From assembly GCA_000974665.1 (NCBI GenBank), contig BBSY01000002.1:1674001-1738000 (forward strand): DNA of 64,000 bases, given 5' to 3'. This stretch comes from an alpha proteobacterium U9-1i. GTDB taxonomy: Bacteria; Pseudomonadota; Alphaproteobacteria; Caulobacterales; Aquidulcibacteraceae. The notes below the pieces were generated by a model that saw only the letters and a list, made by a program, of their open reading frames with translations, had not been told where the DNA came from and did not search any database. Position 1 is the stretch's first letter. Each line of letters opens with the position of its first letter. Below, in pieces: positions 14,490-18,362 of the stretch. The translations under genes were made by a program, and so were the position numbers.

Positions 14490-15029
14490 ATGCAGCGAAA
14501 TGTGGGTTTTCTTGCGGGCGCTTGCGCGCTGCTCTTCGCCCTCGCGTTCAGCGCGTCTCCCGGCGATGCGCAACCAGCGGCAGATCAAACGCTTTCGCGT
14601 CCCGCCGATCTCGCGCTCTGGCCGTCGCTCGGCACAACGGTGCGCACCGATCCCACGAACCCAACGCTGCCGCGTCAGATGCGGCACGTGCAAATGGCGC
14701 CCAGCGCGTACGAGAATCTGGTGCGCACCCTGCAGCTCGCCGATGGCGCCACGTTCGCGGTGACGTTTTACGGCGTCGAGCATGACACCACCCACACGCC
14801 GTCACTCTATTTCGCGCAACGCGAGCAGGCGCTGGCGCTTGAGGTGATCGATCGCGCCCATCCTGATGGGCGGCGCTTCTACGTCCTGCCAGCAGGCCAA
14901 CCCAGCGCCGCGCCGCTGCCCCCCGGGAACGAATGCGCGGTCTGTCACGCAGAGCGTGGCAGCTTCGATGGAACCTTCGCGCACATGTACCCAACATTGA
15001 GGCCGCTCAATCTGTCTAACGCGCGTTAA
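14490..15029 (+). CDS. Cytochrome P460-like periplasmic c-type haem protein
   Basis: 179 residues. Signal peptide in the first 30 residues (GACALLFALAFSASPGDAQ). A haem c motif CAVCHAE stands near the C-terminus (about residues 149-153). The body (LWPSLGTTVRTDPT..., GATFAVTFYGVEHD, RFYVLPAG) matches the cytochrome P460 domain, which in known members oxidises hydroxylamine or handles NO. The usual lysine cross-link cannot be judged here. Single gene, no related neighbours. Confidence 0.75.
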   Translation: MQRNVGFLAGACALLFALAFSASPGDAQPAADQTLSRPADLALWPSLGTTVRTDPTNPTLPRQMRHVQMAPSAYENLVRTLQLADGATFAVTFYGVEHDTTHTPSLYFAQREQALALEVIDRAHPDGRRFYVLPAGQPSAAPLPPGNECAVCHAERGSFDGTFAHMYPTLRPLNLSNAR

Positions 15030-15180: not shown

Positions 15181-17940
15181 TTGATACAATTTGCTCAGAA
15201 AAGCGCGACGCCCACGTCGCGGCGGAAACGCTTGCGCCTCCTGGTGAGCCGCTCGCGGCGCAATCGCCTCGTCGCGGTCGCCGCCGGCGAAGCCGAGGAC
15301 GATGGCGTGCTCGATCTGGTGACGCCGGAGGCCGATGCGCCGGGCGCGACGATCGTCGCGCTCGATGTGGCGTGTGATGATGAGCCGCCCTTCGATCCGC
15401 CCGATGCGGACGATGATATTTTCCTGGGCGCCGAGCCGAGTGTTGAGGAAACCGATCTGCCCGAGGCGGCCAATGACAGCGCGCCCGAAGCCGAGGCTGA
15501 AACCGAGGCCGAAGCCGAGCCCGAAGCCGCACCAGAACCAACGCACGTCGCCGAACGATCATCGCAGACCCTCGACGAGGAGCCGCCATTCGACGCCCCA
15601 GACGCGGACGATCAACTCTTCGCCAGCGGCAGCCTGAAGCGTGGCGCCCAGGTCGAACAATTCACGTCGGACGTTGAAGTCTCCGCCGACATTGTACCGC
15701 AAGGCCCAGCGGACCGTCGTTCCCCGGTCGCGACCGAGCGCCACGAAGAAGCGCGTGCGGTTGAACAACCCATTCCGGCGATCAAGATTTACGCCAGCTG
15801 GGATCGTGAGAAGATCGGCGAAACGCTCAATCGCTTAAGCGACGATCCACGCATGGCGCGCGCCGACATCGAGGTGGAGCGGGGCGGCCTCGATCGCGCC
15901 ATCGCCCGCTTCAGCGAGCGCTCAAGCCCCGATCTCCTGATCCTCGACACCGAACTGAACGATTCCGAAATGCTCGCTGGCCTCGACCGGCTGGCGCACG
16001 TCGTCGAAGGCGGCGCCAAAGTCATTGTCGTCGGCGGCGTGAACGACATCGCCCTGCTGCGCGAACTCGCGGTGCGCGGCGTCAGTGATTACATGGTGGC
16101 GCCGATGCGCCGCGACGATCTCGCGCGCGCCATCTGTGCGCTTTACACCGGCGATTCCAATTCGCGCGTGATCGCCGTCATCGGCGCATGCGGCGGCGTT
16201 GGCGCCTCCACCATCGCCCACAATCTCGCCTGGTCGATCGCCGAACGCCAGGAAAGCGGCGCGACGCTGATCGACCTCGACCTCTCGTTCGGCACCGCCG
16301 CCTTTAGCTTCAAGCACGACCCCGGCCAAACCGTGGTCGATGTGCTTGCCGCGCCGGAAAGCGCCGACGACAGCGTGCTCGATCAGGCCATCGCCAAGCC
16401 AACGCGGCGCTTGCGTGTGCTATCGGCGCCGGCGAGCGTTGCGCGCGAATATCAGATCGAGCCGCAGGCGCTCGATCTGCTCATCGCCCGCGCGCGCCGA
16501 ACCAGCCCGTTCGTCGTGCTCGACCTGCCGCATGAGTGGAACTCTTGGGTCAAACACAGCTTGATCGCCGCCGATGACGTCGTGGTCGTCGCCGGGCCTG
16601 ATCTCGCCAGTCTGCGCAACACCAAGAACTTCCTCGACCTCATGCGCCATGCGCGCCCGCACGCCACGCCGCCCGCCGTCGCGCTCTCCATGGTCGGTGT
16701 GCCGAAGCGGCCAGAGATCCTTGCGAAGGATTTCGCGCAAAGTCTGGGCATCGAGCCCGCCGCATCGTTTGCATTTGAACCCGCGCTTCACGGCATGGCC
16801 GCCATCAATGGCCGTTTGATCGGCGAAGACGCGCCGGACTCAAAGGCGGCGCTGACGATCGATGCGCTCGCCGCATCTTTGACAGGCCGCCGTCCCGTCG
16901 ACGCCAAACGCGCACAGAGCCGCCCATCGGAGTTCAGTGTGCGTCGGCCCGCTGAGGGCGCGCCGCGCCCGGCGCCGATTCTACCTCTCGCCAAACCGGT
17001 TGCGCCTCTCGCGCCAGCGGCGGCGAACGCGCTCACTCACCAGCCCGAGCTGCCGTTCGCCGCCGCGACTCCTTCGGAAGCACTGACATTGGACCGCGTC
17101 GTCGAAGCGCCGCCTGAGCCGCAACGCGACTATATCGAAAAGGCGCGCGACGCAGCGCTTGCCGAAGCGAAGCCCGTTCGCGTCAAGGCGCGCCGTCGCC
17201 GCCGCTATCGCGGCGCCAGCTACGCGCTCGCGGCGGCGTTGGTCCTATGCGCGCTGCGCGTGGAAACAGATCGCCACACGATAAATCGTACGCCGCAATC
17301 GGCCGAATTGATGTCGCTTGCTGTTGTAACGCAAGCGCCAGCGCCGGCGTCCGCTCCGCGGAATCCGGACGCCGACTACGCCGCCGCATTGGAGCATCTC
17401 AACGCTGATCGCGCCGAAGCCGCCGTCACGCTTCTGCGTCAGGCGGCCGAGAGTGGCCACGCCATGGCGCAATATCGCTTGGCTCTGCTCTACGAACGTG
17501 GCGAAGGCGTCGGCGCGAACATGGCTCAGGCGCGCGCATATACCGAACGCGCCGCCGCCAGTGGCAACCGAATGGCGATGCACAATCTCGGCGTCTATTT
17601 CGCGCAGGGCGAGGGCGGGCCGGTCGACGAAGCGGCGGCCTTCCGCTGGTTCCGCCAAGCCGCCGAGTTCGGCGTCGCCGACAGCCAATATAACCTCGGC
17701 GTGCTTTACCAACGCGGCCGCGGCGTCAACGAGGACAAGAACGAAGCCTTGTTCTGGTTTTTGCTCGCCGCGCGCCAAGGCGACACGCAAGCCACCGCCC
17801 GCATCACCGAGATCGAAACCTTGCTCGCGCCGGCCGATGCTCAACACGCGCGCGCCCGCGCCGACGCTTTCCGCCCCCGCGCCGCCAATGCGCTGGCGAA
17901 CGGAGAGCCTCCGCAAGAGCAAGTTGCGTCCACTGGCTGA
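15181..17940 (+). CDS. CpaE/TadZ-like pilus-localisation ATPase fused to PodJ-like membrane and Sel1-repeat tail
   Basis: 919 residues in one uninterrupted frame. Residues 1-190 are acidic and low-complexity. About 200-320 is a receiver-like domain (DLLILDTELND). About 327-560 is a ParA/MinD-type ATPase with a deviant Walker A, GACGGVGASTIAHNL, and VVLDLPHEW, as in CpaE/TadZ, which places Tad pili at a pole. A Pro/Ala linker is followed by DYIEKARDAAL and an Arg-rich stretch, one membrane helix (about 677-695), then at least three Sel1 repeats (about 730-885). That tail copies the C-terminus of PodJ. The start is uncertain: TTG 15181 is used, and GTG at 15244 is possible. Confidence 0.8.
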   Translation: MIQFAQKSATPTSRRKRLRLLVSRSRRNRLVAVAAGEAEDDGVLDLVTPEADAPGATIVALDVACDDEPPFDPPDADDDIFLGAEPSVEETDLPEAANDSAPEAEAETEAEAEPEAAPEPTHVAERSSQTLDEEPPFDAPDADDQLFASGSLKRGAQVEQFTSDVEVSADIVPQGPADRRSPVATERHEEARAVEQPIPAIKIYASWDREKIGETLNRLSDDPRMARADIEVERGGLDRAIARFSERSSPDLLILDTELNDSEMLAGLDRLAHVVEGGAKVIVVGGVNDIALLRELAVRGVSDYMVAPMRRDDLARAICALYTGDSNSRVIAVIGACGGVGASTIAHNLAWSIAERQESGATLIDLDLSFGTAAFSFKHDPGQTVVDVLAAPESADDSVLDQAIAKPTRRLRVLSAPASVAREYQIEPQALDLLIARARRTSPFVVLDLPHEWNSWVKHSLIAADDVVVVAGPDLASLRNTKNFLDLMRHARPHATPPAVALSMVGVPKRPEILAKDFAQSLGIEPAASFAFEPALHGMAAINGRLIGEDAPDSKAALTIDALAASLTGRRPVDAKRAQSRPSEFSVRRPAEGAPRPAPILPLAKPVAPLAPAAANALTHQPELPFAAATPSEALTLDRVVEAPPEPQRDYIEKARDAALAEAKPVRVKARRRRRYRGASYALAAALVLCALRVETDRHTINRTPQSAELMSLAVVTQAPAPASAPRNPDADYAAALEHLNADRAEAAVTLLRQAAESGHAMAQYRLALLYERGEGVGANMAQARAYTERAAASGNRMAMHNLGVYFAQGEGGPVDEAAAFRWFRQAAEFGVADSQYNLGVLYQRGRGVNEDKNEALFWFLLAARQGDTQATARITEIETLLAPADAQHARARADAFRPRAANALANGEPPQEQVASTG

Positions 17941-17965: not shown

Positions 17966-18362
17966 TTCGCCAGTCGGCCGGACGGCCGCGGGCGCAAACT
18001 CGAAAGGGTGCGTTCGAGGAAAGTCCGGGCTCCACGCGGATGCGACGGCGGGTAACGCCCGCCGAGAGCAATCTTAGGGATAGCGCCACAGAGAACAGAC
18101 CGCCTGCCGGAGCCTTTGGCGAAGGTGGGTAAGGGTGAAACGGTGGGGTAAGAGCCCACCGCCGCGACCGTAAGGAAGCGGGCACGGCAAGCCCCGTCGG
18201 GAGCAAGACCGAATAGGGACGCACGTTCTCCGCAAGGAGAACAGGTTCATCCGCGAACCGCGTCCGGGTTGGTCGCGAGAACCGGTCAGCAATGGCCGGT
18301 CCAGAGGAATGGTCGTCACCTCGAAAGGGGTACAGAACCCGGCTTACAGGCCGACTGGCTCT
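17966..18362 (+). ncRNA. rnpB: RNase P RNA (bacterial type A)
   Basis: Catalytic RNA that trims tRNA 5' leaders. The universally conserved segments are present: GAGGAAAGTCCGGGCTCC at about 18014, AGAGCAATCTTAGGGATAG-type P10/11 sequence, the AGGGTGAAACGG element, and near the 3' end CAGAGGAATGGTCGTCACC followed by ACAGAACCCGGCTTACAGG. Terminal helix P1 pairs GCCAGTCGGCC (17969-17979) with GGCCGACTGGC (18349-18359). A -10-like TATAGC lies at 17957-17962, so transcription may begin inside or next to the preceding gene's end. Ends are approximate. Confidence 0.95.

Follow-up and report, generated by a model that had tools for sequence, protein, structure and literature searches.

The polar protein PodJ of Caulobacter recruits the pilus assembly protein CpaE through a cytoplasmic disordered region (PMC9684454), and CpaE, once recruited, promotes the localization of CpaC (PMC5182063; this and all other literature is cited here from excerpts). 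The scaffold and client-binding parts of PodJ sit in its coiled coils and N-terminal region (PMC9684454, PMC10127582), and its periplasmic part is reported to modulate pili yet to be dispensable for the polar localization of PodJ itself (PMC9684454). CpaE is thought to hold its position at the inner membrane by a C-terminal amphipathic helix, and a ring of six CpaE dimers has been fitted around CpaF, the motor (PMC13170226). Here, we describe a gene that joins parts of both proteins. It lies in a window of 64,000 nucleotides (C2:1674001-1738000, where C2 is contig BBSY01000002.1) from the 4.05-Mb genome of the alphaproteobacterium U9-1i (Aquidulcibacteraceae), in which a single open reading frame runs from a CpaE-type ATPase half into a PodJ-type C terminus. 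This is a real, conserved, and lineage-specific fusion gene, and the meaning proposed for it in an earlier note on this DNA, that scaffold and client are hard-wired in one protein, does not hold.

The one-gene joining of the two halves is real (Table 1). The frame encodes 919 residues, opens with a TTG—the start codon is uncertain, as this is one among several in-frame candidates—and reaches its stop at 17938-17940 with no internal stop, so that the two halves are read without interruption, as the earlier note had stated. Its domain assignments stood as well: domain searches, the PDB match, and the close likeness of the tail to the genome's own PodJ all place a CpaE-type ATPase and a PodJ-type C terminus in the same gene. 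A sequencing frameshift or an assembly chimera could be rejected, since 13 more genomes of the same genus carry the fusion as one open frame. Among the titles and abstract openings listed from the open-licence literature, none describes such a protein, in agreement with the earlier impression that it was undescribed.

Table 1. Features of the fusion gene, in positions of the window
Feature	Positions	Strand	Basis or remark
Whole fusion gene, CpaE paralogue plus PodJ-type tail	15181..17940	+	Single frame, 919 codons
Basic N terminus and acidic, Pro-rich region	15181..15741	+	Disorder inferred from composition
First acidic motif, PPFDPP	15385..15401	+	Pattern search
Second acidic motif, PPFDAP	15583..15599	+	Pattern search
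CpaE-type pseudo-receiver domain	15742..16149	+	PDB 4n0p match, residues 188-323, E value 2.3e-20
MinD/ParA-like ATPase domain, CpaE/TadZ type	16159..16920	+	AAA_31, TIGR03815
Deviant P-loop, GACGGVGAST	16183..16212	+	Cys at a position that is Arg elsewhere
Pro/Ala-rich linker	16921..17127	+	Canonical KIPFLKR-like CpaE end missing
PodJ-type juxtamembrane motif, DYIEKARDAALAEA	17128..17169	+	Pattern search
Short hydrophobic helix behind an Arg-rich stretch	17212..17262	+	Putative inner-membrane anchor, N-in/C-out
Three PodJ-type Sel1 repeats, expected periplasmic	17362..17916	+	Pfam E value 1.1e-24; identity to own PodJ

The CpaE half is recognizable by sequence. The best PDB match of the receiver part is annotated as "Pilus assembly protein CpaE" (4n0p), and the Pfam receiver family Response_reg matches residues 240-318 with an E value of 0.0016, under its curated cut-off. 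AAA_31 matches residues 329-490 (E value 1e-8), and the top NCBIfam match of the protein is the CpaE homologue family TIGR03815 (residues 254-539, E value 2.6e-21, under the equivalog cut-off). The CpaE encoded in the tad operon of the same genome is 53% identical to the fusion, and 58% over the core. By this identity over the core, and by the trees described below, the fusion descends from cpaE. Its termini set it apart from the canonical form: the C-terminal sequence [KR][ILF]xFLKx is found in all 24 intact canonical CpaE proteins of the Aquidulcibacteraceae, and the pattern [KR][ILF]xFLK in none of the 21 CpaE paralogues. Conversely, the acidic motif PF[DEA][PA]P is present in 20 of 21 paralogue N termini (13 of the 21 have two copies) and in 0/24 canonical proteins, of which 21 contain PPF[DE] once; the incomplete canonical rows of genomes G037, G052, and G058 were left out of these counts. 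Elsewhere in the window's genome, PPFD[PA]P has two matches, one in a 34-codon frame and one in an 87-codon frame. Two arginines of the fusion's N terminus, R24 and R26, are kept in at least 90% of the 21 aligned paralogue rows.

The tail resembles PodJ more closely than it does any other Sel1 protein of the genome. Residues 728-909 are 65% identical to the C terminus of a full-length, 1240-residue PodJ-like protein encoded on contig C5 of the same genome, compared with 35% for the next-best Sel1 protein. We take the 1240-residue protein to be PodJ—the profile libraries gave no PodJ model—because its residues 1-194, 430-673, and 828-1219 are matched, in the same order, by a 910-residue frame of Caulobacter sp. 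17J80-11. The element DYIEKARDAALAEA of the fusion corresponds to DYLxxARxAAQA in PodJ; searched by one pattern, this juxtamembrane motif occurs in 37 of 38 uncut PodJ rows, in 9 of 15 fusion rows, and in 0 of 27 canonical CpaE rows.

Both partners also exist in their ordinary form in this genome. Outside the window and 21 kb from the fusion, a tad operon encodes a normal CpaE between cpaD and cpaF (a frame of 481 residues, with the match spanning C2:1666818-1668293). This operon further encodes CpaB and CpaD (both above NCBIfam cut-offs), a secretin that is CpaC by position, a CpaF/TadA-type ATPase just below its NCBIfam cut-off, and two more frames that by position and size would be TadB and TadC, one with a weak match to HofC and the other with none. 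Separate cpaE and podJ matches were likewise found in each of the 14 same-genus genomes with the fusion (operon context was read in the window's own genome; the podJ of G036 is cut by a contig end). Therefore, the fusion is an additional paralogue, and replacement of cpaE and podJ was rejected. The survey of relatives thus confirmed the fused form and not the substitution of the separate proteins. The proposed hard-wiring of scaffold and client fails on the same ground, and also because the fused piece of PodJ is without the cytoplasmic region that recruits CpaE in Caulobacter (PMC9684454); fixation of the pilus ATPase to a pole does not follow from the parts of the fusion. As a side observation, the canonical cpaE of G052 (L087 5652-7243) breaks near its end, and an overlapping second frame also matches CpaE.

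Next, we consider how widely the fusion occurs. Among the matches listed, all 60 genomes of the Aquidulcibacteraceae match the query. Within the genus, represented by 30 genomes (the window's included) and known largely from metagenome assemblies, both halves lie in one frame in 14 (G000, G031, G033, G034, G036, G038, G040, G042, G043, G046, G050, G052, G055, and G056); in G053, the fusion gene is in several broken frames, and the canonical cpaE is likewise split. In three sister families, 101/105, 84/119, and 107/119 genomes match at E values of at most 1e-50, and a joined stop-free match was found in none of these 343 genomes (E values up to 1e-50; as a rule, 7 or 8 candidates scored per genome). 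Two sister-family matches that reached 700 and 727 are interrupted by stops, and a second row appeared for two genomes. No Sel1 repeat was found in 20 long stop-free CpaE frames (17 from sister families and 3 from the own family), which end 10-58 residues past the core, mostly with a short end rich in Ser, Leu, Phe, and Lys. A search of 398 genomes across the order is weaker evidence, covering two candidates per genome among the matches listed. In a named collection, which may omit records close to the window's genome, 8 of the 80 loci retained matched from the CpaE half past residue 890 (e.g., CP096134.1); all eight are titled as metagenome assemblies. On this sampling, the fusion looks private to the Aquidulcibacteraceae.

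What such a protein might do can be read from its parts. The explanation that we favor, tentatively and with a probability of roughly 0.42, is that a duplicated CpaE with its end replaced by the helix and Sel1 repeats of PodJ ties the Tad machine, or a CpaE ring or pole marker, to the envelope. In the duplicated CpaE (TadZ), PodJ's membrane helix together with its periplasmic Sel1 domain would have taken the place of the C-terminal end. The N-terminal ATPase half would stay cytoplasmic and could pair with itself or with ordinary CpaE via MinD-type dimer and receiver contacts, the helix would make the peripheral membrane contact of CpaE a fixed one, and the Sel1 repeats would extend into the periplasm and bind an envelope partner; the Arg-rich stretch ahead of the helix suggests this N-in/C-out topology. 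The fusion would then serve as one more adaptor besides PodJ and CpaE, seating or tethering the Tad pilus machine, or its CpaE ring, within the envelope. A single CpaF-type ATPase adjoins a cpaE in this genome, which makes the Tad machine the natural partner. Since the fusion has no client-binding part of PodJ, any polar position must have another source, e.g., pairing with CpaE. It is tempting to speculate further that an inner-membrane-spanning CpaE subunit is mixed into the CpaE ring around CpaF, its Sel1 link serving as a trans-envelope clamp; this more specific picture is doubtful, and such a clamp of CpaE and Sel1 is described for no Tad system among the open-licence papers listed.

Several findings weigh against tying the fusion to the Tad machine in the envelope. 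The gene is not encoded in the tad/cpa operon of its own genome, its neighbors are unrelated to tad and differ between subclades, and the genome holds six T2SSE-family ATPases besides the CpaF-type one, which bears on the choice of partner. The helix is weak in the window's own protein: its best 19-residue Kyte-Doolittle mean, 1.35, is the weakest of 13 same-genus fusions scored (1.44-2.23 in the other 12; G034 unscored), and its position aligns with the clearer helices of relatives. The paralogue also evolves much faster than cpaE: most paralogue lineages have accumulated 0.5 to 2 changes per site, compared with at most 0.28 on cpaE end branches. Within the genus, a CpaE half and helix without Sel1 are found in 7/30 genomes (G032, G039, G044, G045, G048, G054, and G058; that of G048 is cut by a contig end) and a helix with Sel1 but without CpaE in 4/30 (G035, G047, G051, and G049, the last cut by a contig end). 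In four more (G037, which is 57% complete, G041, G057, and G059), the full match listing held no paralogue. With Sel1 missing in seven genomes and the ATPase in four, no architecture is kept everywhere. Finally, G011, from another genus, has a CpaE-Sel1 frame (L065 6199-8709) without a clear helix between the halves; in the core tree it is placed next to the canonical CpaE rows, with a branch length of 2.07, and an independent origin of this fusion is possible. A contig-end Sel1 piece in G010, likewise outside the genus, groups with that of G011. For the fusion proper, the evidence points to a young, lineage-specific gene.

To trace its history, trees of the ATPase half and of the Sel1 repeats were examined. 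A branch parts 21 paralogues from 26 canonical CpaE proteins with support that is not strong (75/86), a split that fits one duplication. The canonical core of G037, which contains a run of N, was left out of the core tree; the pieces of G053 were left out of both trees (its PodJ tail was kept), and a duplicate PodJ row, L011, was dropped. In the Sel1 tree, fused tails alone as a clade were rejected (p-AU 0.0017, approximately unbiased test), whereas fused and tail-only tails together were not rejected (p 0.38); in the core tree, a clade of fused cores that leaves out G011 and the Sel1-less forms was rejected (p 0.008), all three tests being tentative owing to long branches. Because three of the four tail-only genes (L075, L076, L077, and L074) carry the PF[DEA][PA]P motif, their sequences suggest descent from a fused gene whose middle part, the ATPase, was lost; that they represent the form before fusion is conceivable. 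The tail-only gene of G049 (L074 2-8007) lies upstream of an ftsK homologue, and the gap beside ftsK holds no CpaE match; a related subclade has its CpaE paralogue there, between ftsK and lolA. The Sel1-less paralogues (L066, L067, L068, L070, L071, L072, and L247, the last cut by a contig end) extend for few residues beyond the helix. By its predicted helix, the Sel1-less form is a CpaE with a transmembrane anchor of its own. A separate Sel1 gene next to the Sel1-less copies was also considered and rejected: the stretches upstream of those in G045, G032, and G054 contained no Sel1 match, and neither did those of the comparison genomes G042 (fused) and G041.

Selection was measured as the ratio of nonsynonymous to synonymous substitution rates (dN/dS) in copies of relatives, as the window's own copy has no close relative in the set. 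In the pair G036/G050, the ratio for the whole gene was 0.12; by part, from the N terminus on, it was 0.28 (N-terminal region), 0.065 (core), 0.33 (linker plus helix), and 0.015 (Sel1). In G031/G052, the whole gene gave 0.16, and the same parts gave 0.16, 0.10, 0.27, and 0.083. Both halves are thus under purifying selection in these two fused pairs; with ratios well under 1, selection has maintained them in those fused relatives for which it was measured. The Sel1-less forms are less constrained: their core dN/dS is 0.15 (G054/G045) and 0.30 (G039/G044), against 0.06 for their canonical cpaE, a baseline that comes from these Sel1-less pairs only.

Alternatively, the fusion may be a CpaE-derived polarity or positioning protein that works off the pilus, its anchored ATPase drawing on the MinD/ParA scaffold to mark a pole or a division plane for other cargo. 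We regard this as rather unlikely, even if the genomic setting invites it. The gene is unlinked to tad and is followed directly by the class A RNase P RNA gene rnpB (17970-18362) and then rsmH, beyond which frames were read by eye as ftsL, ftsI, murE, murF, and mraY; in another subclade, as mentioned, the paralogue has ftsK and lolA on either side. A positioning role would also suit the doubled N-terminal acidic motif and the fast divergence from cpaE, and in TIGR03815 the actinobacterial homologues of CpaE go by the name septum site-determining protein Ssd. However, the neighbors in other subclades are quite different (reductase-, enolase-, and hydrolase-like, by eye and without family search), so that the location looks incidental, and the alignment shows many core residues to be invariant across the paralogues. 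A link to the division and cell wall (dcw)-type neighborhood was rejected, as it is not conserved among relatives, and so was an operon partner, as the upstream neighbors of several subclades are unrelated except within one subclade. Directly upstream of the fusion in the window (14490-15026), a small protein has a sub-threshold match to cytochrome P460.

A further possibility is that the protein acts as a brake, a membrane-locked CpaE that would pair with ordinary CpaE and so limit pilus assembly or bring it to an end. Such mixed dimers are plausible among MinD-type ATPases, and the Cys that replaces Arg in the P-loop signature suggests that the window's copy may handle nucleotide differently from its relatives. 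Yet this Cys occurs solely in the window's copy: Arg is kept in 20/20 other paralogue rows and in 27/27 canonical CpaE rows (the pattern found 26, and the remaining one, G040, was read directly from its sequence). A brake is improbable. Still less probable is the replacement of the PodJ-CpaE interaction by scaffold and client hard-wired in one protein. The domain content matches, and CpaE is a client of PodJ in Caulobacter (PMC9684454), but all 14 fused same-genus genomes keep both separate genes and the fusion is missing the coiled-coil and client-binding part of PodJ. Lastly, a functionless decaying duplicate or an assembly error is scarcely credible: rates on paralogue branches are high, a module is missing in 11 of the 30 genomes, the copy of G053 is broken, and the Sel1-less pairs show relaxed constraint, but the frame is open in 14 genomes, both halves are constrained in two pairs, and the split canonical cpaE of G053 points to that assembly.

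We also asked whether the paralogues share a CtrA-like box, comparing the upstream regions of 24 paralogue genes with 200 shuffles. With at most one mismatch, the box was found upstream of 5/24 genes, against a shuffle mean of 0.66 (maximum, 3), and not upstream of the fusion in the window's genome; with two mismatches, the count was 13, against a mean of 6.8 (maximum, 13). With the spacing set to 6 as a control, the two counts were 2 and 19. CtrA cell cycle control was set aside as a weak lead. The three uncut tail-only genes have a CtrA-like box (one mismatch) about 40-55 bases upstream.

The fusion amounts to a natural experiment on the route of CpaE to the membrane and the pole: the protein's own end has been swapped for the anchor of its recruiter, the old parts have been kept, and the sets of modules differ from one sister lineage to the next. 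Should the fusion work with the Tad machine, it would give a built-in means of asking how the periplasmic domain of PodJ serves pili. Moreover, it exemplifies, within one bacterial family, a new protein arising from duplication plus fusion of two interacting partners.

Compared with CpaE/TadZ—TadZ of Eubacterium rectale, cited through PMC13170226, served as the comparison system—the fusion has the same pseudo-receiver followed by a MinD/ParA-like ATPase with a deviant P-loop. In contrast to these proteins, it lies outside the tad operon, is without the KIPFLKR-like end, has a doubled PPFD motif, and adds a membrane helix and Sel1 repeats, with the P-loop Cys as a further difference in the window's copy. 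With PodJ it shares the juxtamembrane DYxxxARxAA motif, a single membrane helix (weak in the window's copy), and Sel1 repeats on the C-terminal side. However, it has neither coiled coils nor a PodJ-type N-terminal region; where the genome's own PodJ has about 900 residues before its helix, the CpaE half stands instead. MinD, MipZ, and Ssd, finally, belong to the same ATPase fold family, but these positioning ATPases are peripheral or cytoplasmic, whereas the fusion is predicted to be anchored by a helix and to carry a periplasmic domain.

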